Source: an uncultured archaeon
GTDB taxonomy: Archaea > Halobacteriota > Methanosarcinia > Methanosarcinales > Methanoperedenaceae
Reading direction: 5' to 3'
Length of the DNA: 39,429 nucleotides
Assembly (NCBI GenBank): GCA_902386255.1
Contig: CABMII010000056.1
Coordinates: 1-39,429, forward strand
In this document: one piece after another, positions 18,437-38,990 of the stretch
Layout: each line of letters begins with the position of its first letter
How positions within the stretch are numbered: position 1 is the stretch's first letter
The notes under the pieces: generated by a model
What the model was told of the DNA's origin: nothing
Databases searched by the model: none
The model's input: only the letters and a program-made list of their open reading frames with translations
Made by a program: the position numbers and the translations under genes

Positions 18437-18894
18437 GCTCAGAAGCTGTTACGGCTCAACCCGCGCCGAAAGGGAATGGCTGGGAACCCAAAATCGTGGC
18501 ATTCTGCTGTAACTGGTGTTCATACGGAGGCGCTGACAGCGCGGGGATGGGAAGATTCCAGCAGCCTGCTTCAGCGAGAATAATACGGGTAATGTGTTCA
18601 GGCAGGATAGACCCGCTGCATGTGTTCAATGCATTCCTTGAAGGCGCTGACGCCGTACTTGTGACAGGATGCCATATAGGCGACTGCCATTACGTTAACG
18701 GCAATGATAAGACAAAAATAAAATACAAATATATTGAAAACGTTGCGCGTGAGCTTGGTCTTGAAAAAGAGAGGCTCCAGCTTAACTGGATATCGGCAAG
18801 CGAAGGAGAGAAGTTCGCAAATTTCATCCGAGATGTCACAGAGCAGATTAAAAAGATAGGTCCGAGTCCCTTGAAACCTGAGGGGGTGGCGTAA
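18433..18894 (+). CDS. mvhD: MvhD-type [2Fe-2S] electron-transfer protein, copy 2
   Basis: 153-aa paralog of the gene at 15984, opening similarly (MSSEA..., then [20 protein letters not shown]). It keeps the [2Fe-2S] cysteines in [19 protein letters not shown] and [10 protein letters not shown]. The two HdrA-MvhD units in tandem suggest the pair was duplicated as a block and diverged. It overlaps the next gene by TAATG. Its position directly before frhB makes it the more likely contact for the F420-oxidising subunit, which is inference. Confidence 0.9.
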
Positions 18895-23655: not shown

Positions 23656-23662
23656 AATATCT

Positions 23663-24160
23663 CTATTTTTGAAAAATCTCTTTTGTGCTTAAAATTTCAT
23701 TCATGTGAACTGCATTTATTCCAATCTTTTTACACATACCGAATAATGGAAAATCATCTGTTAGAACTAATCCATTATTTTTCCTTGCAGCCACGACAAT
23801 TGAAGTATCGGTAAAACCAAATTTTATTAATTCAGTCTCATTGAGAAGATTTGTTTTTGATACATATTCTTCATCTATTTTTTCAAGTACGGGTCTATTT
23901 GCGTCAATGAATTCAGAGAATTTATTTTCTTTTAATTTTGTTGCAAAATTTGATACTTCGGTTAAAATATGAGGGGTAACTATAATTTTTTTCTTTGCGA
24001 TGAATTGCAGAAGTAATTCATAATCCTCTATTTTATAATTTTTATTTGAAAGTCTTTTAAAATTAGTTATGCACTCTTTGTCGTACAAACCCATTAGTAT
24101 CAATAATAATGGACTTGTATCCGGTATTACGGTCTTGCTTTTAGTATATAAATTTGGCAT
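23663..24160 (-). CDS. PIN-domain protein (probable toxin RNase)
   Basis: A 165-aa protein with the acidic residues of a PIN nuclease in order: IPDTSPLL (Asp14), LTEVS (Glu68), FTDTSIVVAA (Asp118) and LVLTDDF (Asp135/136). PIN proteins cleave RNA and are often toxins (VapC type). It lies 13 bp downstream of a small partner gene, a typical antitoxin-toxin arrangement, and 7 bp upstream of hsdM. Lower G+C than hsdM suggests acquisition. Confidence 0.75.
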   Translation of the reverse strand: MPNLYTKSKTVIPDTSPLLLILMGLYDKECITNFKRLSNKNYKIEDYELLLQFIAKKKIIVTPHILTEVSNFATKLKENKFSEFIDANRPVLEKIDEEYVSKTNLLNETELIKFGFTDTSIVVAARKNNGLVLTDDFPLFGMCKKIGINAVHMNEILSTKEIFQK

Positions 24161-24173
24161 AAAAATGTTTTCT

Positions 24174-24416
24174 TTATAGGCTATTAGCAGACAAAGGCGT
24201 TATCTCTGTGACATAAAGAATATCTCCTGTCTTATTATCCACGCCAACTTTAAATGAGTGAGGTATATCTTCAAAAACATTTTGAATCACACATATAACT
24301 ATCCATTTTTTATTTGATTCATCAAGCTTAACATTCTTTACTTCAAAGAAAAATTTTATTTTCTTAATATTTTCAAAATATTCCCTTACAGCCATCGTAG
24401 CCTGTTTTGCATCCAT
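24174..24416 (-). CDS. Small partner of the PIN protein (80 aa)
   Basis: GGTGAT precedes ATG 24416 (DAKQATMAVREYFENIKK...); two in-frame GTG codons upstream are part of the ribosome binding site itself. The product is alpha/beta with an N-terminal helix and a curved sheet (FFEVKNVKLDE, KWIVICVIQNVF, FKVGVDNKTGDILYV), resembling small PepSY-like or antitoxin-like folds. I do not recognise a named family; the antitoxin role is inferred from position before the PIN gene. Confidence 0.5.
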   Translation of the reverse strand: MDAKQATMAVREYFENIKKIKFFFEVKNVKLDESNKKWIVICVIQNVFEDIPHSFKVGVDNKTGDILYVTEITPLSANSL

Positions 24417-24485
24417 TAAAATCACCACTTATAACTTTGTGTATTAAAATCGTGCTCTAAGCAATAAACTTTTGTTTCCCTTATC

Positions 24486-24644
24486 CTATTTTTTCTGCTC
24501 GGTCATGTCCATATCCTCAAGGCGCTTCATGAAAATCAGGTATGACATCTGCTCGATGGAGGATAGCAGATTTGATAAGCCGCCGCTCCAGAATTTGTCC
24601 CAGAGGGCGTCTATTTTGGATTTTAGTTCGGGGGCGAGGCGCAT
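24486..24644 (-). pseudogene. Duplicated 5' end of hsdM
   Basis: This minus-strand frame reads MRLAPELKSKIDALWDKFWS and continues like the N-terminus of the intact HsdM at 23655 for about 46 residues, then diverges (MDMTEQKK) into a TAG stop. The DNA match spans 24507-24644 against 23518-23655, a constant offset of 989 bp, with only about nine differences. The two copies flank the PIN gene pair. This is a 5' gene fragment, not a functional methyltransferase. Confidence 0.9.
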
Positions 24645-24690
24645 TGTATGTTTCCCTTAGATATTGTGTATATTCTTTAAGTTATGTTTC

Positions 24691-25047
24691 TCAATCAATT
24701 TCGTGGCGTATGCGGATGGTTCCTATTGTAACTACAGAAAATGCATTCAGCAGTGCCGTACCATGCTTTTTGATTGTATCAACAACTATCTGTGCTTTCC
24801 GTTCCGGAGTTAGACCAGCTAATCGGATTAGCACAACGCCACATGTAATTTTCCGCTGACGAAAAACAAGCTCGCCAAAGTCCTTATCAGCGGTTAATAA
24901 TAACAATTCTTCCCTGTTTGCAAGATCAAGCACTTCATCGTCAGAAATCCCGGCATCTGTTTCAGCACTATACCTGACATCATAATTCTCATGACGGAGT
25001 CGCTCAACAATCTGTCGGTCAACATTCTCGTCTGCAAGGAAGTTCAA
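24691..25047 (-). CDS. DUF5615 PIN-like toxin
   Basis: A 118-aa protein of the DUF5615 (Mut7-C/PIN-like) type: FLADENVDRQIVERLRHENYDV at the start, GISDDEVLDLANREELLLLTADKDFGELV in the middle (acidic residues of the presumed nuclease site), ending in a beta-rich tail. Such proteins pair with DUF433 antitoxins. It overlaps the upstream antitoxin gene by 4 bp, so the two form a coupled toxin-antitoxin unit. Target RNA is unknown. Confidence 0.82.
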   Translation of the reverse strand: MNFLADENVDRQIVERLRHENYDVRYSAETDAGISDDEVLDLANREELLLLTADKDFGELVFRQRKITCGVVLIRLAGLTPERKAQIVVDTIKKHGTALLNAFSVVTIGTIRIRHEID

Positions 25048-25280
25048 GAAACTGCCTCAGCAACAGGATAGACTACATCAGCGCGCAAAGCCCGAGCTGC
25101 AAATGCAAGGGCTGCCCTTATTGCTTCTTGCGTAAGCCGGGGATGAGCTTCAAGTATCTGTTCCTCTGTTTCACCGGCGGAAAGCTTTTCAAGGATCATC
25201 TCAACTGTGATGCGTGTTCCTGCTATGACAGGTTTTCCCATCATAATTTTGGGGTCGGATATGACTAATTTTTTCTGCAT
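25044..25280 (-). CDS. DUF433 antitoxin-like protein
   Basis: A 78-aa helix-turn-helix protein with the classic DUF433 signature ISDPKIMMGKPVIAGTRITVEMILEKLS followed by ETEEQILEAHPRLTQEAIRAAL. DUF433 proteins are usually encoded just before DUF5615 toxins, as here. It probably binds the toxin and its own promoter. A GGAGG-like sequence (GGAGGTTC in the message strand) precedes the start. Confidence 0.85.
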   Translation of the reverse strand: MQKKLVISDPKIMMGKPVIAGTRITVEMILEKLSAGETEEQILEAHPRLTQEAIRAALAFAARALRADVVYPVAEAVS

Positions 25281-25478
25281 TTTGAACCTCCGTTACTGAA
25301 CAGTATGATACATCGGCGAAATAAATTGTATTCCAGAATATGGTTGATTCAAATTTATAATCTCTTATCTCAGTCTTTGCTAACTGTATATATAGAAAGC
25401 TATGAATCTATTTATCCTAGCAATCCAGTAAATCCCATGTGGAAAAGCCATAGCTAAAAATATTAATCATAACATACT

Positions 25479-25892
25479 ATGAAAAAAAGATAAAAAGGGT
25501 GGTTCTTTTCCCCGCCAAAACCTCCCAAACCCGAAGCGCCTGAAAAGTTAAAGGCAGAGGTAGAAACAAAAGCAGTGGAACTTATTGAATCGTTTCTAAA
25601 GCCAGAATATATCAAGCCTTTGCATGAAGATATGCTTTTCAATTACCTCGTGGACATTTATGGAAATTGGTATCGCAACTACTTTCACTTCTGCGCCAAG
25701 TACCGCTCCCCCGGCCCGAATGCTATATCACCGTTTTTTGAAACAAAATTCGCGCGTCTGGAATATGCTGGGAATGGTCTATTCAATCTCTCATACATGA
25801 GACACACAGGGCAATGGTTAGAACTCTATACGGGCTTATCTTTGGAAGAATGTCTAAAGGAAATCAAAGATGATCCGCACTTCATGCCATGA
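25479..25892 (+). CDS. Conserved small protein of unknown function, with in-frame TAA at codon 5
   Basis: From GTG 25575 the frame gives 105 residues with strongly conserved-looking segments (DIYGNWYRNYFHFCAKYRSP, then ISPFFETKFARLEYAG, then RHTGQWLELYTGLSLEECL, DDPHFMP). Coding sequence clearly extends upstream (KGWFFSPPKPPKPEAPEKLK) back to ATG 25479, but codon 5 is TAA (25491-25493). I recall related hypothetical proteins in Methanosarcina with an N-terminal Pro-rich region of this kind. Either the gene is a recent pseudogene, the TAA is a base error, or translation begins late at the GTG. Function unknown. Confidence 0.6.
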
Positions 25893-25935
25893 ATCGAACC
25901 TACCGATGACGCGATTAAATTTCCTTCACATCGCT

Positions 25936-26058
25936 TTACATTTCTTCCCGGAACGCCTTCTGCATCAGGGCGCTGAACAAGTCCTCAATCTGCTGCTTTG
26001 ATTGAGCCTGACTTCCGCGCATGGATTCGATTTTCTCGACGATGCGGGCAAATTTTTG
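25936..26058 (-). pseudogene. Duplicated 3' end of hsdS
   Basis: The minus strand reads QKFARIVEKIESMRGS and continues through IEDLFSALMQKAFREEM to a TAA, closely matching the last 40 residues of the intact HsdS (27777-27900 region). DNA identity is about 80 percent, lower than the hsdM pair, so this copy is older or came from a different allele. The rest of the gene is absent. The YgiT/DUF4258 pair and the nucleotidyltransferase gene lie between the two copies. Confidence 0.88.
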
Positions 26059-26118
26059 TATATCTAATTAAAAAAGTAAATTAGAATTCAAATAGCATAA
26101 ATACATTGTGATTAACAG

Positions 26119-26138
26119 AGTGTATACACTTTTATACA
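26119..26138. promoter_or_regulatory. Inverted repeat at the nucleotidyltransferase promoter
   Basis: TGTATA and TATACA are inverted arms around CACTTT and overlap a TATA-like TTTTATACAA about 15-20 bp before ATG 26150. This could be an autoregulatory operator, as is common for toxin-antitoxin genes. Confidence 0.35.
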
Positions 26139-26149
26139 ATAAAAGCGTA

Positions 26150-27080
26150 ATGGTCTTCAATAAGAAAAGGCAATTACAGATTCAGGCGTCCGCGCTGTTG
26201 CGGAGCTATGATGGTCTCGGCGTACGTCAGGCATGGGAGATTATCCCCCGGTTTAGAGAAGGTTGGAATATACTGCACGCGATGCAGGAGGTTTGAAATC
26301 GAAAGACCCTTACAGCCAGCCCTTATTGAATTTATTAAGAAATTTCCAATCCTTAAGCATGTGACTACTTCATTGAAGCCTTACATGAATACGGTCAGAG
26401 GACTATATTTTCACGGCAGCAGGGTAAGAGGAGACCATAGGGAGGACTCGGATTATGATCTTGTGCTTATCACCCGTGATAAAATAGGCGATGAATTAAA
26501 GACCGAGCTTAAGGAACATAATATCCAGGTGGAAGTTTTTACTTTAAGCCAGGTAAAAAAACAGCTTGGGCTAACCCCATCGTATTTGCTGACAGTTCTC
26601 AGGGAAAGTGTGCCTTTGATAGGAGTTGAGTTGAGGGATAAGCTGGTTAGAAAGAAAATGAATGATATCGCTCTTCAGGTTGAACTTAAAGACTGTATAA
26701 AACAGCTTGAATATCTCAAAAAGATGCTAAAGAATGAACCTGATGATTATATTAAAGCCCGCGTGATTCATTCCGCTATCCTGCGCCTGAGGCAGGCATA
26801 TTCGATCAAGCGGCTGTATTATAAGGACGTGCCGGAGCTTTCTCTGGATTTCACATATTCCAAAGGCAATTTTGATGAGATTTATGAGCTTTACAGGATT
26901 GTAAGAGATATGGTTCATGGTAAAGGATTGAACGAAGAAGAGATACCCGAAATGGTCAAAACACTAACAAGGGACGAGCTTAAAGGGCTTGTCAGTTCAG
27001 TGGATGCTTATGCAAAGGATGTATTTGACCGGATAACAGGATCAATGGGACGCGAAAAAATTAATGTAAATCCAGAATAG
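26150..27080 (+). pseudogene. Nucleotidyltransferase (MNT-like) with HEPN-like C-terminus, frameshifted twice
   Basis: Three frames join into one protein: MVFNKKRQLQIQASALLR through RFREGW in the first frame; YTARDAGGLKSKDPYSQP in a second (about 26273-26328); then IEFIKKFPILKHV onward in the frame that runs to 27080. Each switch is repaired by adding one base in a short run (an A near 26270, a C near 26326). The catalytic motif of minimal nucleotidyltransferases is intact (FHGSRVRGDHREDSDYDL), and the C-terminal 150 residues are helical with RDMVHGKG, as in HEPN-like partners. Such proteins AMPylate targets in toxin-antitoxin systems. It is either a decaying gene or an intact one with two consensus errors. 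Confidence 0.7.
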
Positions 27081-27095
27081 CCCCATGCATAGCGA

Positions 27096-27443
27096 TTAAT
27101 ACACTTCTGCCACTATCTTATCATCCTCAAGCCAGATATCGACATTCTCTTTTTTCCCAAGAGCCCTGTCAATTTCCTCAGGTATGCCAAGCACCCGCCT
27201 TCCTCCACTCTTCGTTATCTTGCGCTTGAAAACTACAGCAGGCTTGCGGAATTTCTTTATTACCTCTTCTACCTTCTCAGCAGATTCAGCATCGGCATAT
27301 TCCTCGCCGCATGTGGGGCAGCGCGTGCCTGTTAGCCCTGTGATTACGACCTCTCTTCCTTCAACTGCCGTGACGAGGGTAATATCAGTTGCTTCTTTTG
27401 TCTGACTTGCGCATTGTACACACTTAATTTCTATTTCGCTCAT
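27096..27443 (-). CDS. YgiT/MqsA-like zinc-finger antitoxin
   Basis: A 115-aa protein with two CxxC pairs (CVQC near residue 8; CPTCGEEY near 42) typical of YgiT-type zinc fingers, followed by a helix (AEKVEEVIKKF) and an AbrB-like end (ITKSGGRRVLGIPEEIDRAL). It is one base away from the upstream DUF4258 gene, forming a toxin-first pair like mqsRA. It should neutralise the toxin and bind the promoter. Confidence 0.8.
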   Translation of the reverse strand: MSEIEIKCVQCASQTKEATDITLVTAVEGREVVITGLTGTRCPTCGEEYADAESAEKVEEVIKKFRKPAVVFKRKITKSGGRRVLGIPEEIDRALGKKENVDIWLEDDKIVAEVY

Positions 27444-27444
27444 A

Positions 27445-27735
27445 TTATTTCATCTCTTCTTCCCGTATTACAGTTATAATTATCAGGACATCTTTAAGTA
27501 TGAACGTGATCCGAATATTTTTGCTTTCATGGTCCCATCCGCGCATGGTGTATCTGGTATCTCCAAAGGTATCTATTTCTTTTTTATAGAGTGAGCCGTG
27601 AAGCAGTACAAGTTTGATATCTGAGGGATAAATACTTCTCTCAGCCATTCTTCCAAGCGAGTGCACACGCAGAAGGTATTTCCTCTGTTCGAACAATTCA
27701 AGTGCTTTCGTTCGGATTTCTTCAAACTCTTCCAT
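27445..27735 (-). CDS. DUF4258 toxin-like protein
   Basis: A 96-aa protein of the DUF4258 type (RelE/MqsR-like fold): LLRVHSLGRMAERSIYPSDIKLVLLHG then GDTRYTMRGWDHESKNIRITFIL and a closing strand LIIITVIREEE. The conserved His and Arg near the N-terminus fit a ribonuclease site. Coupled to the YgiT-like antitoxin immediately downstream, and about 40 bp downstream of hsdS. Confidence 0.8.
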   Translation of the reverse strand: MEEFEEIRTKALELFEQRKYLLRVHSLGRMAERSIYPSDIKLVLLHGSLYKKEIDTFGDTRYTMRGWDHESKNIRITFILKDVLIIITVIREEEMK

Positions 27736-27776
27736 AACACTATATTTTCTCTTATGTATCTCTTTACATATATGCT

Positions 27777-29015
27777 TTATGTCTCCAGTTCCCCGCGAAA
27801 CGCCTTCTGCATCATGGTATTGAATAAGTCCTCTATCTGCTGCTTTGATTGGTTCTGGGATTGGCGCATGGATTCGACTTTCTCGACGACGCGGGCGAAT
27901 TTTTGCTGGAGGGGGAGAGGTGGTACTGGAATTAAAGTCCGATTTACTGCACCCACATTAAGATGTTTTTGAGCTATCCCAGTTTGAAAAGATAATGTTT
28001 GATTTTTCCCACTCGACGAATTAAAGTAGGCACAAAGGTAATTGCTTTCTACAATTCTTTGATTCGGTCTTGCGATAATAAGGTCAATACAATTAACTCC
28101 ATCTAATTCTTCAGGAACAACGCAAGCTGTTCCTGGATAACCTGTTCTTACAATTAAAACATCGTGTTCTTTGATAATTGATTTCGAGAGCTTTGAATTA
28201 TTATCTTCTTCTGAAATAAATACAAGCTTTTCTAAATTTATACCATATTCTTTTATATTCAATGACCTTAATGCTGGCACACCACTCGGAACATAATAAC
28301 TGGCTGGTCTTATTACAATCCCCACAGTTATGGATTGGCACACTTCTTTACACTTAAACAAAGTCCATCCTTTCGGGTTAGTGGCAGGGTCCCCGAACAT
28401 CTCCAGAAACACGCTTTGAAGCAGCCTGTTCGTAAGCTCATCCGCCTGCGCCCTCAGCCTCTTCGTCTCCTCGGCTTTTTCGAGGATTGACACGATGCGG
28501 CGCTGGGTTGGGAGAGGTGGAACAACTATATTAAATTTCTTAAGGTTAATTATATTGAATCCTGGTTGTGCAGATTTAAAACTAACAGACCACATTTGAT
28601 TTTGGAAGAACGAAGTGTTCATGAAATAGACTAAAAATTTTGGAATCATCTTGGTTTTATCTAATGTAATCTTGCCCACAGAAGAAGTTGTATTTGCCAA
28701 AGGAATTTCATTTGGAATAATCGCCACTTTACCAATCGTAGCACCTGTTTTTGAAATAATTATATCATCTGGATGAAGCTCGCTTTTTAAATTTTTTTCA
28801 TGTATATCTTTCGAGATATATACTAGCTTTTCCTTTTTAATTTCACCCTCCGAAATATCAGCCACTCGAATGTAAGGTATGCCCGAATTTGTATACATAG
28901 ACGGTTTTATTTGTCCATGATCACCATCTCCAATAGGGTATTTTGTTTTTGAAGCAACTTCCAATAGTTCATGCCATTCCCATCCCTCCGGCAGCGCCCG
29001 CCGCTCATTATCCAT
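27777..29015 (-). CDS. hsdS: Type I restriction-modification specificity subunit
   Basis: HsdS (412 aa) recognises the DNA target and organises two HsdM and two HsdR. Two target-recognition domains begin at PEGWEWHELLEV (about residue 9) and PKGWTLFKCKEVC (about 214), each followed by a conserved helical spacer: LPTQRRIVSILEKAEETKRL (about 169-188) and LPLQQKFARVVEKVESMRQS (about 369-388). It appears full length. The last 40 codons are also found at 25936-26058. Its upstream region contains a short dispersed palindrome (29036-29077). Confidence 0.93.
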   Translation of the reverse strand: MDNERRALPEGWEWHELLEVASKTKYPIGDGDHGQIKPSMYTNSGIPYIRVADISEGEIKKEKLVYISKDIHEKNLKSELHPDDIIISKTGATIGKVAIIPNEIPLANTTSSVGKITLDKTKMIPKFLVYFMNTSFFQNQMWSVSFKSAQPGFNIINLKKFNIVVPPLPTQRRIVSILEKAEETKRLRAQADELTNRLLQSVFLEMFGDPATNPKGWTLFKCKEVCQSITVGIVIRPASYYVPSGVPALRSLNIKEYGINLEKLVFISEEDNNSKLSKSIIKEHDVLIVRTGYPGTACVVPEELDGVNCIDLIIARPNQRIVESNYLCAYFNSSSGKNQTLSFQTGIAQKHLNVGAVNRTLIPVPPLPLQQKFARVVEKVESMRQSQNQSKQQIEDLFNTMMQKAFRGELET

Positions 29016-29035
29016 CGCTCAGCCCTCCGCTTTGC

Positions 29036-29077
29036 ATTCTTCGCGCTCTTTGCGGTACGCACCGCAGAGGACGCAAA
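29036..29077. repeat. Dispersed GC-rich palindromic repeat, copy near hsdS
   Basis: The stretch contains TTCGCGCTCTTTGCGGT followed by ACGCACCGCAGAGGACGC, with inner arms TGCGGT/ACCGCA. The left half recurs at about 33590-33613, upstream of hsdR. It resembles a repeat type found scattered between genes in many genomes. Confidence 0.6.
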
Positions 29078-29195
29078 GAATATTTTTTATATAAAATGCA
29101 AAAGACACTCTGAAACTCCTTTCTTAGCTCATTTCCATAATAACGACTCGATGGACAATAAGTTTTAACTTATCATAAATCTTAAGGTATATTTA

Positions 29196-29495
29196 ATGTG
29201 TAGCGAAGACACTGTCTCGGAAATTACCTCTGAACTCAGCAATGTAATAGGTTTACCTGAACCTGAACTTATTCACAGAGGCTTGATATCCTTCATTGAA
29301 AAAGAAATACGGCTCGCAGAATCTGACATATCTGATATCATAGATAGGTATAATGTCCCCTCAAAAGAGGATCTATACAATGCGATAAAGTCTAAAAAGA
29401 TACCAAGCCATCCCGCGTGGGAAGATTATATCGTCTGGAAAAATAAAGAAAAATACATCAAAGACCTGAAAGCCCGCCTTGGCAAGGTTCAATAG
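29196..29495 (+). CDS. Antitoxin-like partner of TumE (TumA-type)
   Basis: A 99-aa, mostly helical, acidic protein (ETISEITSELSNV-like start; LIHRGLISFIEKEIRLAESDISDIIDRY in the middle; WEDYIVWKNKEKYIKDLKARL at the end). It precedes the TumE-family gene with no gap, as TumA antitoxins do. The family is inferred from context and from helix-rich composition. Confidence 0.6.
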   Translation: MCSEDTVSEITSELSNVIGLPEPELIHRGLISFIEKEIRLAESDISDIIDRYNVPSKEDLYNAIKSKKIPSHPAWEDYIVWKNKEKYIKDLKARLGKVQ

Positions 29496-29879
29496 ATGCT
29501 TTTAATATATCAAACTCTTGAGAAGACAGCGCAGACTGACTTTTCAGGTATCGTTAAAGACACTGCTCTGATTGGCGGAAGGTCTGCACAACCTAATAAG
29601 CTGAGAGTATTTTTGATTGATGGCAGTTTCCTTGATGTCTGGCTCAGTGACGATAACGATTATTCTTTTCACTGGGAGCAGAGGGCTGTGCGGGGATTGA
29701 TTCATCGATGGGATAATGCGCCAGATCATCCAGAGATTGAGACTTTTCCACATCATTTTCATGATGGAAAAGAGAAGAATGTCCGGAGCAGCAAATTAGA
29801 CACGAATTTCAAGATTGCATTTAAAGAAGTTCTTATATTTATAAAAACTGAATTAAATATTAAAAAATTAATTTATTAA
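29496..29879 (+). CDS. TumE-family toxin
   Basis: A 127-aa protein with the TumE-type pattern: LRVFLIDGSFLDVWLSDDNDYSFHWEQR followed by HRWDNAPDHPEIETFPHHFHDG. The His/Trp/Asp cluster is the family hallmark. TumE proteins are toxins of TumE-TumA modules carried on mobile elements. The start is immediately after the antitoxin stop (TAG then ATG). It ends six bases from the duplicated hsdR fragment. Confidence 0.75.
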   Translation: MLLIYQTLEKTAQTDFSGIVKDTALIGGRSAQPNKLRVFLIDGSFLDVWLSDDNDYSFHWEQRAVRGLIHRWDNAPDHPEIETFPHHFHDGKEKNVRSSKLDTNFKIAFKEVLIFIKTELNIKKLIY

Positions 29880-29885
29880 GTTTTG

Positions 29886-29919
29886 GCATATATTTCCTTC
29901 TCCAATGCACCGCAGAGAT
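29886..29919 (-). pseudogene. 34-bp duplicate of the hsdR 3' end
   Basis: Bases 29886-29919 match 30593-30626, inside the last codons of hsdR, with one difference (33 of 34, offset 707 bp). The block corresponds to the C-terminal LCGALEKEIYA of HsdR but has no gene around it. The two copies flank the DUF104/PIN pair. Confidence 0.8.
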
Positions 29920-29927
29920 GCGAAGGT

Positions 29928-30368
29928 TCAATCTAAAGTTTTTAAAATATCGGAAGGAGTAAGCCTTTTCAATCCTTTTATCTTATCAAAATGCTTATCA
30001 TAGCTTATTATTGACGCTTTCAGCCTTTTTGTAACAAATGATTGCAAGGCATCATCAAAATCAAGTCCATTCTCCGTCTCCTCAATAGCCTCAAGCTCTT
30101 CTTCCAGATTCGTGGTATAAACAAATAACCCTTCGAAATCGATTATGCTGCCCAAAAAAATCTTGAGTTCTTTTTCTTTATTGAAATTACTCAATATGAC
30201 TTCTATTGAATGAATGGAAAATGAAGATACATAGACCTCCAAATTGCCAATCTCCACTTCCTTAAGCAGCCGTGCACAATCATTTTTAAAAGCTCTATTT
30301 AGAAGAAGCTCAAGAAAAATATTCGTGTCAATGAGATAAGCTTTTTTTTGCCCAGACTTCTTTTGCAC
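29928..30368 (-). CDS. PIN-domain toxin (VapC-like)
   Basis: PIN nuclease with YLIDTNIFLELL near the N-terminus (first Asp), SIHSIEVIL (Glu), GLDFDDALQSFV (Asp) and SYDKHFDKIKGL (Asp) as the expected active-site order. The frame is open to a TTG at 30392; I prefer GTG 30368 (146 aa), which still overlaps the upstream antitoxin gene by about 40 bp. Such overlap is usual in vapBC pairs. It probably cleaves tRNA or rRNA, as known for the family. Confidence 0.78.
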   Translation of the reverse strand: MQKKSGQKKAYLIDTNIFLELLLNRAFKNDCARLLKEVEIGNLEVYVSSFSIHSIEVILSNFNKEKELKIFLGSIIDFEGLFVYTTNLEEELEAIEETENGLDFDDALQSFVTKRLKASIISYDKHFDKIKGLKRLTPSDILKTLD

Positions 30369-30531
30369 TGTGCTGTAATTCGACCGAATCAATATCTATA
30401 TCTCCCATAAGACCTGCAAGTCTGTCCACTTTGGATTTTCGTATTTCTATGGTAACTTCTTCGCCTTCGGCGAGGTTCAACCTTTTCTTAGGCTTCAATA
30501 TTCTATCCCTGTATATCGCTCTTACTCTCAT
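30328..30531 (-). CDS. DUF104-type antitoxin
   Basis: A 67-aa protein with the DUF104 (AF2212-like) pattern: RAIYRDRILKPKKRLNLAEGEEVTIEI forms a small swapped beta-barrel, followed by a helical tail (DRLAGLMGDIDIDSVELQHSA) that would wrap the toxin. It pairs with the PIN gene that overlaps its 3' end. It lies about 50 bp downstream of hsdR. Confidence 0.8.
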   Translation of the reverse strand: MRVRAIYRDRILKPKKRLNLAEGEEVTIEIRKSKVDRLAGLMGDIDIDSVELQHSAKEVWAKKSLSH

Positions 30532-30582
30532 TTTATTAAAGAAGGTTGCCTTCGTATATAGTATTTATGATTAAAAGGCTCT

Positions 30583-33423
30583 TCAAGCCTCCGCATATAT
30601 TTCCTTCTCCAATGCGCCGCAGAGATTAATAAAATCATTCAATTCATTTTCTGTGAACATAGGCATAGGTGCATTCACACCGAAGTTGGTGAACGGAGCA
30701 TCAAATAGCTGGGAAAATTCTATATGCTTTCTCTTTGTAAAAACCGTCTGGACCGTCCTGATAAAGTTAAGCTGGTCTGCACTATAGTTCCTGTTGTTCT
30801 CGATTATATAAGTATCAAATGCGTCCTTTATCCTTTTTTCAGGCTCAGGGAATTTGTATAAACCCAAAATACTCTTGACAAACTTCACAAGCGTGCCCTT
30901 ATTCTGGTTATACGCCTTCTGCAATACATCCTCTGTAATATACAATTCAGGGCTGTTAAGGGTCTCCTCAAGTGCCCGCAGGTCTGCCTCGGTCAGCACC
31001 TCATCCTTTTTGATTTTGATGATTGCCGGATGCTCATCAGCCATCTTCTTTATCCTGTCCTCCACTTTCTCCTTATAGTCCAGGACATACTCCTGCTTTG
31101 CATCAGGTCCATACTCGATAAGTTTTCTCTGCTGAATCACGTCATCAATATCGAGAACAATGGGTTTTCGGGGTTCGGAAGCCATGTATTTCATCAGCTT
31201 TGCAAGTTCCGATACCAGCATCTGCGAATCCTCAAACGATACAGCCTCCCAGAACGACCTTGAAAGCACCTTTTCTTTAATCGGAATCTTGGGTTTGATT
31301 ACGTTTAACTCGTCAGGCAGGCATTCCACCATTTCCCCTATTTTCGGTTTCAGGCGTTCAATCTCCTCCAGGTCTTTCCGCAGGACAGCGACACCCAATT
31401 TTTCACATTTGAGCGTAAAGGACGCCTCATTCAGGTTAACATCCTGCTGAAATTTCATCAGGGGAGTGATTTTCTTCTTCATGAATTCAACAGGGTCAAT
31501 TCCCACATTGTCCCATAGTTTTGGAGACAGTGCTTTCTCGATATCCTTCAGGTTCTCCCTGACGCTTACGGAATCCTTCGGCAGTGATTCAATATCTTCA
31601 AGGACTTTCTTCTTTATCCTTTCGGCATTTTCCACATCTCCGATTAACAATAAATGCTGTAATTGTGCCAGCCGTGTAAGGAATATTTTGCTTGTAATAG
31701 CCTCTCCGAACTCTTTCTGGTCGCCTTCGGGATGCATATCCCAGTACTCAAAATTTCCCCAGAAATCAAATACCTTGAAATATTCCTTTTTCCCTTCAGG
31801 AAGCCATTCCTTATGCCTGCACGCTTTATCAGACCGTGTTCCCCTTCCCAGCATCTGCCAGAATTTGATTCTTGAGAATACAGGTTTTGCAAAGACAAGG
31901 TTGCAGACTTCCGGAATATCGATGCCCGTGTCCAGCATATCTACGGATATTGCCACTCTTGGCATCGGTTTTTCTTTAAATTCCTTAATGGAATCCTGTG
32001 CCCTCGGGTCATCCGATACAATCACTCTCGCAAGCCGTCCCTTGTATTCCGGATAGAGCCTTTCAAATGCCTCCCATAATCTCCTTGCGTGCATTTTTGA
32101 AATGGCAAATATTATGGATTTTGCAGGGAGATTTCCGGACTGGTCTGTCTGGCAGTTATCCATAAACTCCCTGATTAAGGCTTCGCTTGTTCCTTTTACA
32201 GCGACCTTTTTTTCAAGTTCCGTTCCTTCAAAGTTTATCTCGTAAGGATCAATTCCTTCCTGAGATAACCGGTTTATTTCGCCAACAGGCAAATCGGCTG
32301 TTTTAACGCCAGCAATCTGGAAATGTGTCTGTGCGCCTGAAATATTTTTCCTGAAGTCGCACAAAACGCCATCTCTCATAGCGTCCTCATAATCATAGAG
32401 TGCTGTTGCTACTTTATTTTCGCAGTTAAAGAACCTGAAAGTATCCCTTTCGATAAAATCAGCAGGTGTTGCCGTCAGACCTATCTGGATTGCATCAAGA
32501 TAAGTGAAAACATCCTTCCATTTGTTGTATATGGAACGGTGGGCTTCGTCTGAGATAACAATATCGAACTCTGAAGGGGAAATCAGATATTTCCCTGAAC
32601 TGTCCTTTTGATTGTATATCTCCATGAATGTCTGGATTGTGGATACATAGAGCCTTGAATTCTTGTCAAATACGCCGGAAAAAATCTTTGATTTTGATTC
32701 TTGTGGAAAGAACTGCATAAATCCGTCATCATATGCCTGGTTACGGAGTGCCTTTCTATCTGCAAGAAACAGAATCTTTTGAGCCCAGTTCGCTTTCAAA
32801 AGAACATCAATAATTGCCATAGCAACTCTTGTTTTTCCAGTTCCTGTTGCCATGACGACGAGCGCCTTGCGGTTTCCTTTCTCAAGATGTTCTACCACCC
32901 TTTTGGCGCATTCTATACTTTTTGGACGGTCAACAATTCTTCTGTCGATGTCAATATCCGTTAGTTTTTTCCTTGTTGTGACCTGAAACTTGAATCTCTC
33001 AAGGTCTTTTTGTGAAAAGAATCCTTTCACAATTCTCGGACCGTAACGCTCCCTGTCCCAGAACCAGATTTCATACCCATTAGATAAAAAAATAAAAACA
33101 TCCTTTCCTGTTTGTTTTTGTATATCATTTGCATACTCTTCAGCCTGTTTTTGTGCCGTGAGAATGGGGTCTCTTGATGTTCGTTTTGCTTCAATTATTG
33201 CTATGGGCGACCCGAAACCATCGAGAAGCAAATAATCGACATATTTGCTTTCCATATCGTTTTTAAGCGTCTCTGAAACTGTTTTATAATTCTGGGCACG
33301 AAAATCTGATTGTTTTGTATCCACTTCTATGATTATTTTTCCTCTATCTCCGACCACCCATCCCTGCTCTTTGAGCATGACATCAATCATTTGTTTTCGA
33401 GTTAGAAATTCATTCAGTTCCAT
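30583..33423 (-). CDS. hsdR: Type I restriction enzyme R subunit
   Basis: HsdR (946 aa) cleaves DNA after ATP-driven translocation. N-terminal nuclease: VDYLLLDG then AIIEAKR (Asp, Glu-x-Lys; about residues 62-80). Motor: Walker A MATGTGKTRVAM (about 192), DEAHRS (about 290), LTATP, then the second RecA domain with DMLDTGIDIPEVCNLVFAKPV and QMLGRGTRSD. The C-terminal helical region binds HsdM/HsdS. Full length. It is transcribed toward hsdS, but about 1.6 kb of toxin-antitoxin genes, some on the opposite strand, now lie between them. Confidence 0.94.
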   Translation of the reverse strand: MELNEFLTRKQMIDVMLKEQGWVVGDRGKIIIEVDTKQSDFRAQNYKTVSETLKNDMESKYVDYLLLDGFGSPIAIIEAKRTSRDPILTAQKQAEEYANDIQKQTGKDVFIFLSNGYEIWFWDRERYGPRIVKGFFSQKDLERFKFQVTTRKKLTDIDIDRRIVDRPKSIECAKRVVEHLEKGNRKALVVMATGTGKTRVAMAIIDVLLKANWAQKILFLADRKALRNQAYDDGFMQFFPQESKSKIFSGVFDKNSRLYVSTIQTFMEIYNQKDSSGKYLISPSEFDIVISDEAHRSIYNKWKDVFTYLDAIQIGLTATPADFIERDTFRFFNCENKVATALYDYEDAMRDGVLCDFRKNISGAQTHFQIAGVKTADLPVGEINRLSQEGIDPYEINFEGTELEKKVAVKGTSEALIREFMDNCQTDQSGNLPAKSIIFAISKMHARRLWEAFERLYPEYKGRLARVIVSDDPRAQDSIKEFKEKPMPRVAISVDMLDTGIDIPEVCNLVFAKPVFSRIKFWQMLGRGTRSDKACRHKEWLPEGKKEYFKVFDFWGNFEYWDMHPEGDQKEFGEAITSKIFLTRLAQLQHLLLIGDVENAERIKKKVLEDIESLPKDSVSVRENLKDIEKALSPKLWDNVGIDPVEFMKKKITPLMKFQQDVNLNEASFTLKCEKLGVAVLRKDLEEIERLKPKIGEMVECLPDELNVIKPKIPIKEKVLSRSFWEAVSFEDSQMLVSELAKLMKYMASEPRKPIVLDIDDVIQQRKLIEYGPDAKQEYVLDYKEKVEDRIKKMADEHPAIIKIKKDEVLTEADLRALEETLNSPELYITEDVLQKAYNQNKGTLVKFVKSILGLYKFPEPEKRIKDAFDTYIIENNRNYSADQLNFIRTVQTVFTKRKHIEFSQLFDAPFTNFGVNAPMPMFTENELNDFINLCGALEKEIYAEA

Positions 33424-33739: not shown

Positions 33740-34408
33740 TTATCTATCTTTACTTACACTCAATAGTTCAGCGGCAATAAACCGTGAGGTAATCTGGGCA
33801 AGCAGAGGATAGAAAGCTAAACTTTCAGATTTTTGAAGTTTATTGCAAAATCCGGGAACCCACTGCATCAGGTGCCGCTCCAGAAAATCCCTCTGCGCCA
33901 GGAGATAGCCATTGAGCGCTTCGTTATCCCAGGTTTTCATTGCGCGAGCCTCCTCAAAGGTAAGGAAATGCAAAAACTCAAGTTCTGCAGAGATATGGTC
34001 AGGAAATTCCCGTTTTCCTTGTTCCTGGCTCATACGCAGGCCGAAACAATTATAGAACTCACTCACCTCCAGCATGACAATGCTTCTTGGTTTTTCGAAA
34101 TAATAACCCTCGTATGGCGGGCAGGGGGGTACAGGGGCGCCTGAGTCAAATGTGCGGGTAAATTCAATCCCGAATCCAGCATAAGTCATTTCTTTCAATG
34201 CATCCCTCACCTGTCTGAGAACATGTTCTGGCGTTTTGAGCCGAGGAATTGAGGATATGTTGTACATCAGTTCATCCAGGAATTTCCCGTTTTGAAAAGT
34301 TTTAAAGAGCCCCGGGGTCGGATAGCGGAAACCACTTGAGAGTAATTTATACAGGGTACTGGAAACGATAGGATCTCTTTGGACGCGTTGAGGCATATTA
34401 TCACTCAA
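33740..34408 (-). CDS. TorD/NarJ-family molybdoenzyme assembly chaperone
   Basis: A 222-aa all-helical protein of the TorD/NarJ/DdhD type: LYKLLSSGFRYPTP near residue 19, PCPPYEGYYFEKPR near 93 (the family usually has a similar tyrosine-rich loop), then SEFYNCFGLR and a conserved DHISAELEFLHFLTFEEA. These proteins bind the apo catalytic subunit and permit molybdenum-cofactor insertion. It overlaps the heme-subunit gene by 8 bp and is the last gene of the operon. Confidence 0.85.
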   Translation of the reverse strand: MSDNMPQRVQRDPIVSSTLYKLLSSGFRYPTPGLFKTFQNGKFLDELMYNISSIPRLKTPEHVLRQVRDALKEMTYAGFGIEFTRTFDSGAPVPPCPPYEGYYFEKPRSIVMLEVSEFYNCFGLRMSQEQGKREFPDHISAELEFLHFLTFEEARAMKTWDNEALNGYLLAQRDFLERHLMQWVPGFCNKLQKSESLAFYPLLAQITSRFIAAELLSVSKDR

Positions 34409-35051
34409 TAGAAAGAGCTTGCCACTCCGAAACTATTTTATGCCCGCCCCTTTCTGCATACGCGCCGCCTTTCCAGTTTGCAAAAGCTATCCTGTAACTT
34501 CTTCCGCGCGCGAAAGAAACCTGGTTCTCCGAAGCGGCAGCCATCGGCCGGGTTATGACCAGGCTCCATGTTCCATTCTCCCATTTCTGGTAATGCCTGA
34601 TGTTCCGGGATGCCGCATCAGGGCTTGTTTGCGGGGTTCCCATACCGCCGGCAACAATATTTTCCGGCGCAGGTAAATCGGCTCTCCAGAAAATAATGTT
34701 CACGGGTTTGTCCATTGCTCCCATCCAGAGAGGGCTTTCTTCTGTGAATAGAGGTATCTCCATTGCAAAAGCATCCGCAAAGATAGGATAATCGCCAACT
34801 GAATTGTTTTCTGAGGCAGCGTTCCATTGGTAGAAGAAAAAAATATCCGTCCCGTTATGCGCCGCTTTCACTTTTGCCTGTCTTACCTCATCAGGGAGGA
34901 ATGTGGTCCTTGCGCCGACTTCATTAAGTCGCCTGCTGAATATGATAGTAGTTTCCGGGGCATTATGCCATACAGGGTCTTCAGGGTCAAGTGATATTGT
35001 CCCGGGTGTATATGCTGCTTTAATTTCCGCCGGCGGGTCGCTATCTGCCAC
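34401..35051 (-). CDS. Heme-binding gamma subunit (EbdC/SerC/DdhC-like)
   Basis: A 216-aa protein matching the ethylbenzene-dehydrogenase-type heme b domain: DPEDPVWHNAPETTIIF at the start, VKAAHNGTDIFFFYQW, DAFAMEIPLF, WMGAMDKPVNIIFWRAD, and a closing IAFANWKGG. In characterised relatives this subunit carries a b heme and passes electrons to or from a cytochrome. The start is GTG 35051 with AGAGGT upstream; the frame upstream has no other start and ATG 35079 leads to a stop. No signal peptide is seen, although known relatives are periplasmic. Confidence 0.85.
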   Translation of the reverse strand: MADSDPPAEIKAAYTPGTISLDPEDPVWHNAPETTIIFSRRLNEVGARTTFLPDEVRQAKVKAAHNGTDIFFFYQWNAASENNSVGDYPIFADAFAMEIPLFTEESPLWMGAMDKPVNIIFWRADLPAPENIVAGGMGTPQTSPDAASRNIRHYQKWENGTWSLVITRPMAAASENQVSFARGRSYRIAFANWKGGAYAERGGHKIVSEWQALSIE

Positions 35052-35088
35052 AGTTAAAACCTCTTTGTTATTATTTTCATAATTTACC

Positions 35089-36126
35089 TTACACCTGAAT
35101 CCGGTCTGCCTCCGAATGCGGTATCAATATGTCAATTAATTCCGAACTTCTTCCCGATGCTACTTTTTCCCTTTCGCTCAGAATGGTGCTGAATATCTCC
35201 CTTATCCGCCCAACGCGCTCATCAAAGCTCTGCTCTGCCGTATCACCGAATAATTTCGCAAGCATTTCAACCGGGATGCGCTGATTTTCAGTAAGTTTCC
35301 CGGTCTGAGTATACGCCGGGGGGGAAAGAGGAGGGATGTAAAATACATTGGGGTCTGTCTTGAATTCAGGATGCAGCCGCAAAGCCACTTTCCATGTGTT
35401 CACCAATTTATACACGCTGCTTGCCGTATCATCTGCAAAGCCCACATGATGTATACGACCTACGCACTGGGTTGCACATAAATTCCCTTTATGTTGCTCT
35501 ATCCTTGGATAACAGAATATGCACTTCTGGGAAATTTTCTCTTCGGGATTATAGTATATTTTTTTATACGGGCATCCTTTAATGCAATAGCGGTAGCCCC
35601 TGCATCGTTTCTGGTCAACAAGGACTATCCCGTCCTCCTTACGTTTATAAACCGCCTGGCGCGGGCAGGCATCCACACACGGGGGGTCGCTGCAGTGGTT
35701 GCATATACGCGGCAGGTAAAAATAATAGGAATTGGGGAATTTTCCATCGCCCACATCCTCATCCCAGTTGCTTGCGTAAGCGCTGCCGCCTAAGGGTTTT
35801 GGATTTGGAATCAATACGGATGCCGGGGCATCTCCTCCATTGGTTTTCAATACTTCGCCATAGTTATATTCCCAGGGGGTGCCATAGCTTTCATTTATAC
35901 CTGGAAGCGGTATGCTGTTCTTGTCCTTTGTGTTAAACCACCCGCCCAGGGTTTCCCAGTTCTTCGGATAACCCTGCCCTGGCTGCGTTTCCACATTGTT
36001 CCAGTACATATGCATCTGGCCTTTATTCCTGTCAGTCCACATGGTTTTGCACGCCATTGTGCAGGTATGGCAACCGAGGCATTTGTTCAGGTCTGCCACC
36101 ATCCTGACCTGTTTTTGTACAGGCAT
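35089..36126 (-). CDS. NarH-like iron-sulfur beta subunit
   Basis: An electron-transfer subunit of about 345 aa with four Fe-S cluster motifs: CLGCHTCTMAC, CNHCSDPPCVDACP, CRGYRYCIKGCPYKKIYYN and CIFCYPRIEQHKGNLCATQC. In the third motif a Tyr replaces one Cys, as Trp does in NarH, implying one [3Fe-4S] and three [4Fe-4S] clusters. I place the start at ATG 36126, which overlaps the preceding stop as TAATG and has GAGGAGGT upstream; the longer frame to 36192 overlaps narG. Compared with bacterial NarH (about 510 aa) it is shorter, closer to SerB/DdhB/EbdB. Confidence 0.9.
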   Translation of the reverse strand: MPVQKQVRMVADLNKCLGCHTCTMACKTMWTDRNKGQMHMYWNNVETQPGQGYPKNWETLGGWFNTKDKNSIPLPGINESYGTPWEYNYGEVLKTNGGDAPASVLIPNPKPLGGSAYASNWDEDVGDGKFPNSYYFYLPRICNHCSDPPCVDACPRQAVYKRKEDGIVLVDQKRCRGYRYCIKGCPYKKIYYNPEEKISQKCIFCYPRIEQHKGNLCATQCVGRIHHVGFADDTASSVYKLVNTWKVALRLHPEFKTDPNVFYIPPLSPPAYTQTGKLTENQRIPVEMLAKLFGDTAEQSFDERVGRIREIFSTILSEREKVASGRSSELIDILIPHSEADRIQV

Positions 36127-38957
36127 TATTTTACCTCCTCGTATTTTCGGATCTCTACGCGGGTATCTTTCTGGTTTCCCGTGGGACCCCAATAATTAGG
36201 GTTAAACTTAAGATGCCCGTAGCCTCCGACAAGCTGCGTCGGCTTGATGCGGATAGTCGTAGGGCTCTGGAAGCCGCCTTTTTTAAAAGTGTAGCGCTCC
36301 CAGCCTTGGTACATCAGGGTCAAGCCTTCAGGCATCCGGGGCGATATGCAAAGATTGGCGATTATTGCCCCGCTGTCGTTGTATATCTCAACCGAATCGT
36401 TATCCGAAAGTCCGCGGGCAGCGGCGTCATCCGGGTTTAAGTACACAAGCGGGTAACCCCTCTGTAACCGCAACTGGTACTTTGCATCCCTCCACAGCGA
36501 ATGTATGCTCCACCGTCCATGCGGTGTGAGAAAACGAAGCTTGTATTTAGTCCCATCCACTGGCGGTTTGTACACAGGCAGTTCCTCATGGAACTCGGTG
36601 AGGTACCAGTCATGGTCGATGTAGAACTGCTGCAGCCCTGTAAGTGTGCTAAGAGGATGTTTCAATTCGAACATCCTCTGGAAAGCATAGTACGCTTCCC
36701 CCTCCTTTATATCGCTTGTCCATCCATCATATGTTGCCAAAAAACGCCTGGGCTTGTCGTTCAGCATATCCATTGTCATGCCTCTTGTTTCCACTGAATT
36801 GTCAAGGATGAATTGCCCTGCGCTCTTATCCTCCGCAAGGGTGCCGTGTGCCGTGAACTCATCCGGCAATGTTGAGAAATCACGCTTCGTGCCTGAGCCG
36901 TCAGGCAGCGTATCCTCAAAAGAGAACTTTGTGTTTGCAAGCGCCCGGGCAAGTTCCAAAAATATTTGCCAGTCGGTCTTGCTTTCAAGCAGCGGAGGGA
37001 TTATCGGGGTGAACGGGTTGATGTATGAGTGAAGGTCAGTTGTGCTTAAATCCCACTTCTCGAACATACTTGATGAAGGCAGGATAACATCTGCGTATAA
37101 ACCAGTAGTATTCATGCGAAAGTCAATATCCACGATAAGGTCAAGTTTTGGCCAGAGGTTAGTCAGGATAGATTCCGCTCCTTTTGCCTGGTTAAGATAG
37201 TTGGCGCCCCATACGATGAGAACCTTTGGCGTTTTACCTGTGTCCAGCGTCCCTTTCGGATACAGCGGCATCCAGCCATTCTCGACGCTTTCACGAATAT
37301 ATTCGCTGACGGGACGCGGCCAGAGGGTCTGGGTTTCAGGGTCTCCTTCAATTTTTGAGTGAACGTATGTCCACAGTGTGGTCGGCTGGAATCTCTGCTT
37401 TGCATTGCCAAGCGGAAAAGCAAGTTTGAAAAACCCTTCTTCGCACCAGAATTTTTCCTGGCCTACATAATGGTCAAAGCCGCCGCCCGGTACTCCGACA
37501 TTGCCTGTAAGGGCGGCAAGCAGTATCATGCTCCTGTTCATGAGGTCATTGTGGTAATAGTGGTTCACACCGGCGCCCTCGATAATCCTTGCGGGTTTTG
37601 CGGATGCGAATTCGCGTGCCACCCGTGTAATCAGGCCGGCGTCCACACCTGTAATGCCTGAAACGCTCGCCGGGTCGTAACTTTGGAGTTTCTTCAGAAG
37701 CAGTGAAAAAACAGTTGTCACTTCAACTTTTCCTGAAAGCGTATCTACCATGAAGGTTCCATGAAGTGCAGGATTTATCGTGCCAATATCCAGCGTCTTA
37801 TCCTGGCAATCGATTGTGCCGGGTGCCAGTACCGCCGTTCCTGTATTTTCATCCCAGAAATAGAAATTACCTGCCTTCCCCTCCAATTCGACATCGCTTT
37901 CCCTGAGGAACTTGCCGTTATCCGTCCGCACAAGCATCGGCATATCGGTGAACCGTTTCAGATAGTTCTCATCATACAACCTCTCGTTCACGATTACATT
38001 TGCCATTCCAAGAGCCAGTGCGCTGTCGGTTCCTGCTTTCACCGGGATGAAGATGTCCGCATGTATCGAGACAGGGTTATATTCGGGAAATATTGCGACT
38101 ATCTTTGTGCCGTGCATTCTGGCCGCTGTCACAAAATGGGCATCGGGAATGCGTGTCTCAAGCAGGTTTGAACCCCAGATTATTATGTATTTTGAGTTGA
38201 ACCAGTCCGCAGCTTCGCATGAATCGGTCTGCACGCCCCATGTGATTGGCTCACCGGGCGGCAGGTCTGAAACCCAATCGTAGAACGTACAAACCACGCC
38301 GCCGATGAGATTTGCCAGGCGTGCGCCTGCTGCGTAGGAAACCAGGAATTTCGCAGGATTGGCTGAGTAGAATGTCACAGTATCGGGACCATAATCGGAT
38401 ATGGCAGCAACAATTTTGTTCGCAATGTAATCAAGGGCCTCTTCCCATGCGGCTTTGCGCCATTTTCCTTCGCCCCGCTCGCCAGTCCGTATCAAGGGAT
38501 ATTTCACGCGCTGCGGGCCATAAACGTATTCCTTGTAATTTGCGCCCTTCTGGCATCCTCTCGGATTGTATGTGGGAAGAGTTGAGTTGATATCGGGATA
38601 ATCAGCATACTGCTCCTCCTTGAATGCAATATTGTTCCTGACGTAAACCTTCCATGTGCAGGAACCTGTGCAATTGATTGAATGTGTTGTCCTGCCAAAA
38701 GAATCGTACTTCCACTGCTCGCGGTACAGTGATTCCCATCCTTCGTAGGGGTATTCACCGATGGGTTCATGCACCTTTTCCAGAAGGTCAAGCGCCAGAG
38801 CATGTTTGGCAGCCTGTGCCCCCCGCTCCAGGATGGCGTGTGCGCGGTCATGCCTTGCTGCCAGGGTTTCTGTCGATGGCTCAGCCTGTGCATTTTTTGT
38901 AGGGTCATCCGCCCCAATGATCGCCTTGTTTGATATATCCGGAATTTCCCCCGCCAT
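36126..38957 (-). CDS. NarG-like catalytic subunit of a type II DMSO-reductase-family enzyme
   Basis: A 943-aa bis-MGD molybdoenzyme. The FS0 cluster ligands are His92, Cys96, Cys100 and Cys135 (THSINCTGSC, then NPRGCQKG). The molybdenum-ligating aspartate is Asp231 in YDWVSDLPPGEP, which places it in the nitrate/selenate/chlorate/ethylbenzene group. The following WGVQTDSCEAADWFNS and WGSNLLETRIPDAHF closely resemble nitrate reductase. It is shorter than bacterial NarG (about 1240 aa), like archaeal and periplasmic relatives. No twin-arginine signal is present, and an in-frame TAA two codons before the ATG rules out an upstream extension. Substrate (nitrate most likely by similarity and context) is not proven. 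Confidence 0.88.
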   Translation of the reverse strand: MAGEIPDISNKAIIGADDPTKNAQAEPSTETLAARHDRAHAILERGAQAAKHALALDLLEKVHEPIGEYPYEGWESLYREQWKYDSFGRTTHSINCTGSCTWKVYVRNNIAFKEEQYADYPDINSTLPTYNPRGCQKGANYKEYVYGPQRVKYPLIRTGERGEGKWRKAAWEEALDYIANKIVAAISDYGPDTVTFYSANPAKFLVSYAAGARLANLIGGVVCTFYDWVSDLPPGEPITWGVQTDSCEAADWFNSKYIIIWGSNLLETRIPDAHFVTAARMHGTKIVAIFPEYNPVSIHADIFIPVKAGTDSALALGMANVIVNERLYDENYLKRFTDMPMLVRTDNGKFLRESDVELEGKAGNFYFWDENTGTAVLAPGTIDCQDKTLDIGTINPALHGTFMVDTLSGKVEVTTVFSLLLKKLQSYDPASVSGITGVDAGLITRVAREFASAKPARIIEGAGVNHYYHNDLMNRSMILLAALTGNVGVPGGGFDHYVGQEKFWCEEGFFKLAFPLGNAKQRFQPTTLWTYVHSKIEGDPETQTLWPRPVSEYIRESVENGWMPLYPKGTLDTGKTPKVLIVWGANYLNQAKGAESILTNLWPKLDLIVDIDFRMNTTGLYADVILPSSSMFEKWDLSTTDLHSYINPFTPIIPPLLESKTDWQIFLELARALANTKFSFEDTLPDGSGTKRDFSTLPDEFTAHGTLAEDKSAGQFILDNSVETRGMTMDMLNDKPRRFLATYDGWTSDIKEGEAYYAFQRMFELKHPLSTLTGLQQFYIDHDWYLTEFHEELPVYKPPVDGTKYKLRFLTPHGRWSIHSLWRDAKYQLRLQRGYPLVYLNPDDAAARGLSDNDSVEIYNDSGAIIANLCISPRMPEGLTLMYQGWERYTFKKGGFQSPTTIRIKPTQLVGGYGHLKFNPNYWGPTGNQKDTRVEIRKYEEVK

Positions 38958-38969
38958 GGTTTATACTTG

Positions 38970-38990
38970 TTTTCGTTTTAATATAAGGGT
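38970..38990 (-). promoter_or_regulatory. Promoter of the nar-like operon, probably leaderless
   Basis: On the minus strand CTTATATTAAAAC is centred about 24 bp before the ATG at 38957, and no ribosome binding site is seen. This predicts transcription starting at or close to the start codon. Confidence 0.45.

Follow-up and report, generated by a model that had tools for sequence, protein, structure and literature searches.

The canonical nitrate reductase (Nar) of Methanoperedens is placed outside the membrane (PMC4683180), all haloarchaeal NarG proteins are reported to carry a twin-arginine translocation (Tat) signal (PMC8301774), and the ethylbenzene dehydrogenase EbDH is described as periplasmic (PMC8840923). 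Here we describe an operon of Candidatus Methanoperedens which encodes a relative of these enzymes, and for which no export signal was found on any subunit. The operon shows a compact alpha-beta-gamma-delta arrangement on the minus strand at the end of contig CABMII010000056.1 (C56 in our set), whose 39,429 nucleotides were analysed as a whole and are called the window in the following. Its product is a type II enzyme of the dimethyl sulfoxide (DMSO) reductase family. Judged from the sequence, it is probably a cytoplasmic alpha-beta-gamma nitrate reductase, a relative of the exported haloarchaeal and PcrA-type enzymes, which would require the passage of oxyanions across the membrane. The contig belongs to a genome of 2.6 Mb with 96% completeness (G000), and the comparison set of the genus comprises 31 genomes. 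The nearest named relatives are LFW metagenome-assembled genomes (MAGs) and Candidatus Methanoperedens, together with two Ca. Brocadia genomes.

The alpha family as such was reported in 2021 as common to the LFLS Methanoperedens and close to Haloferax NarG and PcrA (PMC8561730). The NarG_LFLS and PcrA_LFLS proteins named there come from LFW-type genomes and share the family (TIGR03479) with the alpha subunit of the window. The passages on this family deal with alpha only and not with its location, the gamma subunit or a channel, and the main text of that paper mentions neither Tat, a signal peptide or a cytoplasmic location nor Brocadia. Unassigned complex iron-sulfur molybdoenzyme (CISM) proteins of ASW-3/ASW-6 and CMD-1, described as clustering with Brocadiales (PMC7327174), may belong to the same family. 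No description of a cytoplasmic nitrate reductase arrangement in Methanoperedens was found in the titles and abstract beginnings of the open-licence PMC papers searched.

The catalytic alpha subunit (36126..38957, minus strand, 943 aa), which carries the molybdenum bis-molybdopterin guanine dinucleotide cofactor (Mo-bisMGD), matches TIGR03479 with 1076 bits, above the curated cut-off of 984.75. Export signals were examined by a Tat motif and by Kyte-Doolittle hydropathy. Alpha has no Tat motif, an in-frame TAA is located one codon upstream of its ATG, and no Tat-like segment occurs in three frames within 300 bases upstream of alpha at 13 loci. The same is true for the close relatives: none of the 13 loci which hold the alpha N-terminus (8 from Methanoperedens including the window, 5 from Brocadia-type genomes; L011 lacks that end) encodes a Tat signal. 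One of them, L106, has a frame without usable start codon and an apparent frameshift near the N-terminus. In contrast, the haloarchaeal NarG proteins, the nearest relatives outside the clade, carry the signal in 17 of 17 cases. The motif test was positive for all 39 exported-type comparison rows, namely these 17, 11 rows of a group (f8) whose label Archaeoglobi-like is a guess and which includes the Methanoperedenaceae row L093, 6 canonical Methanoperedens rows, 3 second-type haloarchaeal rows, ClrA and a Brocadia NxrA. It was negative for four of four NarGHI-type rows and for the distant row L099.

The gamma subunit (34401..35051, minus strand, 216 aa, GTG start) also lacks a signal peptide as well as a membrane helix. 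Its best 15-residue hydropathy mean within the first 70 residues is 0.25 and the N-terminus is not hydrophobic, whereas the same measure gives 2.03 for ClrC and 2.49 for a Halobaculum gamma subunit. The third control, the haloarchaeal gamma of locus L041, reaches only 0.73 at its annotated start and has a hydrophobic in-frame extension upstream. By hydropathy none of 14 gamma loci has an export signal; their best means range up to 1.58, with the high values including residues before the likely start. No export signal was found on beta and delta either. Two out-of-frame Tat-like strings were detected, before beta in the window and before delta in L004, and neither begins a subunit reading frame. 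An earlier note on this DNA, made from the sequence alone, had stated that no subunit carries an export signal, that gamma lacks a signal peptide and that the in-frame stop excludes a missed Tat signal on alpha. All three statements are borne out, and the Tat-bearing orthologs which it had named as the counter-evidence did not appear among the 13 loci. The Tat-bearing NarG paralog it had proposed to look for in the same genome was not recovered either; the only further TIGR03479 match is weak (21 bits, contig C72).

Gamma matches PF09459, and TIGR03477 is its top match with 150.3 bits, slightly below the cut-off of 169.85. A structural model of moderate confidence (mean pLDDT 72.5, built from 10 sequences) matches EbdC (2ivf_C; E 1.4e-12, TM 0.75), which gamma also matches by sequence, and NxrC (7b04). 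M110 and K205 align with the Met and Lys positions which we take to be the heme ligands of EbdC, and both are invariant in 10 of 10 aligned sequences, the model being of low confidence around M110. Gamma is thus a putative EbdC/NxrC-type heme b subunit with M110 and K205 as putative ligands. The fold and the ligand positions are shared with EbdABC, while the alpha subunit of the window reaches only 405.6 bits against the EbdA model, far below its cut-off of 2000.

The comparison with NarGHI gives a mixed picture. The lack of Tat, the nitrate-type active-site residues and a NarJ-like chaperone are common to both, but alpha scores 589 bits against TIGR01580, far below the cut-off of 1084, and the operon contains a putative soluble EbdC-type heme b protein instead of NarI. 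That NarI is lacking had been noted before and was confirmed: the operon has none, and the only PF02665 match of the genome is weak (20.9 bits) and below the cut-off. Among the 31 genomes G004 and G030 alone have PF02665 matches above 200 bits, each next to the narGHJ genes of that genome. These two genomes (loci L088 and L089) encode an E. coli-type Tat-less narGHJI operon; before it lies a cytochrome c gene whose product has an apparent signal, and a SLAC1-family gene follows directly.

The haloarchaeal pNar is similar in several respects, since L041 shows the same alpha-beta-gamma-delta order, the alpha subunits are 46-48% identical, and the Glu gate and an EbdC-like gamma are shared. However, the L041 gamma has a C-terminal membrane helix, which was not seen in the operon of the window, and L041 has Rieske and cytochrome b genes before alpha, which were not seen among the scanned neighbours here. 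In the relatives, too, neither gene was present among the Pfam-scanned neighbours, which comprise part of the flanking reading frames, and the contig of the window ends 472 bases upstream of alpha. A conserved neighbour as electron donor was rejected, as none of the reading frames clustered and scanned around the operon is a recurrent gene for electron transfer.

The solved protein most similar to alpha is PcrA of PcrAB (4ydd/5e7o), with 870 bits over the full length, followed by NarG. The gate residue W461 of the solved chain corresponds to W489 in PMC8301774, an offset which means that a leader of 28 residues was removed; the alpha subunit of the window has none. In alpha the iron-sulfur cluster FS0 is ligated by H92/C96/C100/C135 and the Mo by D231; N95, Y226 and H466 are also present, and E501 is the gate residue. 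D231, the FS0 set, N95, H466 and the DLPP motif match NarG, so that the nitrate-reductase-type Asp ligand and FS0 site claimed by the earlier note are retained. Anammox-type Nxr differs in this respect, for L095 has an Asp among its FS0 ligands, which are a His and three Cys in the alpha of the window. The proposed comparison of the substrate funnel was carried out as well: Asn and Glu are those of the NarG type, and at the position of the PcrA Trp gate nine of the 10 clade rows have Glu and one (L007) has Asp. The roles of these gate residues are described in PMC8301774, where Glu is given as the NarG state; a Trp-to-Glu mutant of PcrA, however, is reported there to lose nitrate affinity. Therefore the gate Glu alone is no proof of a nitrate substrate. 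Nitrate would be the main substrate, with chlorate or perchlorate as possible ones. Of the substrates which had been left open before, a hydrocarbon is unlikely, because alpha retains both residues of the NarG type, Asn and Glu, and its score against the ethylbenzene dehydrogenase model is far below the cut-off.

The clade is fully supported in a broad tree (8 Methanoperedens and 2 Brocadia rows) as well as in a careful tree (7 and 2). The latter contains 28 of 55 rows; ClrA and L099 were dropped as long branches, L008 as a split gene and the rest as near-duplicates. The clade falls together with PcrA and haloarchaeal NarG (support 81/84) and is separated from Nxr (100/100). In the approximately unbiased (AU) test a grouping of the clade with the NarGHI-type, haloarchaeal and PcrA rows gave p values of 0.112, 0.166 and 0.409. 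As all three groupings pass the test, a loss of Tat independent of NarGHI is only likely, and a common Tat-less ancestor with NarGHI may also account for the data (p-AU 0.112). In the phylum of Brocadia the clade alpha occurs in 4 of 392 genomes with 75-76% identity. Both named Brocadia loci are surrounded by ordinary metabolic genes such as those for transketolase, serine hydroxymethyltransferase and glycerol-3-phosphate dehydrogenase, so that they are unlikely to be stray contigs of archaeal origin. Lateral transfer between Methanoperedens and Brocadia, in either direction, is likely. Among the viral contigs no relative was confirmed.

A cytoplasmic enzyme would depend on transport of its substrate or product. 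SLAC1-family genes (PF03595) were found in 8 of the 31 genomes. Eleven of the 31 contain a Tat-less Nar, nine of them the enzyme described here (G000, G015-G018, G025, G026, G028, G029, with G026 counted from a fragment and G016 with a split gene) and two the NarGHI type (G004, G030). SLAC1 occurs in 7 of these 11 genomes versus 1 of the 20 others (Fisher p 0.0009) and, for the alpha-beta-gamma enzyme alone, in 5 of 9 versus 1 of 20 (p 0.0055), both values being indicative only. The exception among the 20 is G027 (74% complete), in which the gene lies beside citrate synthase, as it also does in G029. In five genomes SLAC1 is linked to nar genes: it is 51 bases from alpha in G016, 73 in the sister lineage G015 and 2.8 kb in G029, and it follows narI of the Tat-less operon after 20 bases in G004, with the same order in G030. 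It is unlinked in G017 and G028. The four genomes with only a Tat-type NarG (G001, G002, G003, G014) have no SLAC1 match. This association is consistent with an enzyme that needs its substrate brought across the membrane or its nitrite removed from the cell. NarK was rejected as importer, since none of the 31 genomes has a match above the cut-off. NrfA-like matches above 440 bits are restricted to G001, G003, G004 and G030 and thus to none of the nine genomes with the enzyme; partial matches (77 and 51 bits) are present in G026, and many multiheme proteins give weak matches.

In the arrangement which we propose, the TorD-type delta would insert Mo-bisMGD into alpha. As a signal is lacking on both alpha and gamma, the alpha-beta-gamma complex would not leave the cytoplasm. 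An anion pathway, in several relatives probably a SLAC1-family channel, would let nitrate in and nitrite out. Electrons would enter at the heme b of gamma and pass along the Fe-S chain of beta (FS4-FS1) to FS0, and nitrate would be reduced at the Asp-ligated Mo. Candidate donors for gamma are soluble carriers linked to ferredoxin or F420, or else a membrane-bound cytochrome b accessible from the cytoplasmic side. Several points weigh against this proposal. The Fisher p values overstate the independence of the 31 genomes, which are related to one another, and the genome of the window as well as three of the eight other genomes with the enzyme (G018, G025, G026) have no SLAC1 match. Channels of the SLAC1 type are passive, and an inward flux of nitrate would need a steep gradient; nitrite export by the channel is as plausible as nitrate import. 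To our knowledge no electron donor has been described for an EbdC-type heme b in the cytoplasm. Finally, nitrate is reported to be below detection at one Methanoperedens site where the gene is present (PMC8561730).

The strongest competitor, to which we give a minor but real chance, is an equally cytoplasmic enzyme which chiefly reduces (per)chlorate, selenate or another oxyanion for respiration or detoxification. The similarity to PcrA is in line with it, haloarchaeal NarG proteins are described as accepting chlorate and perchlorate (PMC8301774), and (per)chlorate was brought up for alpha in PMC8561730 itself; yet the PcrA Trp gate is Glu or Asp in the clade, and the same paper reports no chlorite dismutase in the LFLS MAGs. 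The earlier note had left the location open between a soluble cytoplasmic enzyme and an unusual export route. The former fits better, because no subunit has a signal and the anion-channel gene tracks the Tat-less Nar. Export of the folded complex with a Tat-bearing partner encoded elsewhere, or by a non-canonical signal, is improbable: the beta subunit of this family is thought to be co-exported with alpha (PMC3578206) and the known gamma partners are extracytoplasmic, but in the known cases alpha itself bears the signal, whereas throughout the clade both alpha and gamma are without one, and the operon has no carrier gene.

It is more doubtful still that the enzyme runs in reverse as a nitrite oxidoreductase. 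Nar and Nxr share their fold and one Brocadia relative has a Tat-bearing NxrA in addition, but the clade is clearly set apart from Nxr in the tree and a nitrite-oxidising methanotroph would have no obvious acceptor. A signal concealed by misassembly or a wrong start is largely refuted and hardly credible. The short distance to the contig end and two loci elsewhere with apparent frameshifts in alpha (L106, and L008, where alpha is split late by stops) would allow it; the stop beside the start, the three-frame searches and the agreement of independent assemblies speak against it. By the upstream stop and these searches a wrong start, a frameshift and a separately encoded signal were rejected. 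The cytoplasmic nitrate reductase thus remains the reading which we prefer, its location, the direction of its reaction and the role of the channel being proposed from sequence comparison. More tentatively, and rather doubtfully as a whole, the enzyme could be a topologically inverted type II nitrate reductase, with alpha, beta and gamma inside the cell, including a heme b subunit of a kind that elsewhere is extracytoplasmic, and with gamma drawing its electrons from the soluble carriers of reverse methanogenesis rather than from cytochrome c. It could then have reached the inward-facing architecture of NarGHI by a second, separate path, or stand part-way towards it, and would have moved between methanotrophic archaea and anammox bacteria.

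All four reading frames of the operon were confirmed at their previously reported positions. The four-cluster Fe-S subunit beta (35089..36126, minus strand, 345 aa) begins at ATG 36126, preceded by GAGGAGG and overlapping the alpha stop (TAATG), which corrects the TTG start of the earlier list of open reading frames. Beta matches TIGR03478 with 459 bits, just below the cut-off of 480.7, and the TorD/NarJ-type maturation chaperone delta (33740..34408, minus strand, 222 aa, TTG start; PF02613) matches TIGR03482 with 133.5 bits, slightly below 152.3; both are still the top matches. A TATA-like TTATATTA (38979..38986, minus strand) was read from the sequence. Its centre lies about 26 bases upstream of the alpha ATG, a distance that would suit an archaeal transcript without leader which begins at that ATG. 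The operon is under strong purifying selection as judged by pairwise ratios of nonsynonymous to synonymous substitution rates (dN/dS) against the window. Where dS is measurable, alpha, beta and gamma have ratios of 0.05-0.15 and delta of 0.11-0.28; dS is mostly saturated for the Brocadia set.

The operon is directly adjoined by type I restriction-modification genes (HsdM, HsdS, HsdR; 22147-33423), with a nucleotidyltransferase similar to MntA/HalB in between. A further cluster (10376-21878) encodes CCG-domain (HdrB-like), HdrA-like and F420-binding FrhB-like proteins and a short molybdopterin-dehydrogenase-like protein, looking like an Hdr-formate dehydrogenase-type complex, and a RuBisCO large-chain gene is located at 2814-4103 of the window of this methanotrophic archaeon. 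A glutamate dehydrogenase-type gene lies near the operon in three relatives (L045 14618-15892, L047 6533-7816, L049 5286-6560; one copy scanned by Pfam, the other two assigned by similarity) and could hint at nitrogen assimilation. With two models mcrA was not found in the genome of the window, while 28 of the 31 genomes have a match. This is probably an assembly gap rather than a true absence, because several other genomes contain mcrA only in pieces, some at contig ends.

The site of nitrate reduction decides whether nitrate-coupled methane oxidation builds an ion gradient, whether nitrate has to be imported and where toxic nitrite is formed. The operon offers a natural example of a complex in which two subunits have apparently lost their signals. 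If our reading is true, an enzyme type which is normally made for the outside of the membrane works inside the cell, unlike in the published Methanoperedens model (PMC4683180), and this lineage within Methanoperedens and the Brocadia-type anammox bacteria would depend on another path for the electrons and on a channel for oxyanions.

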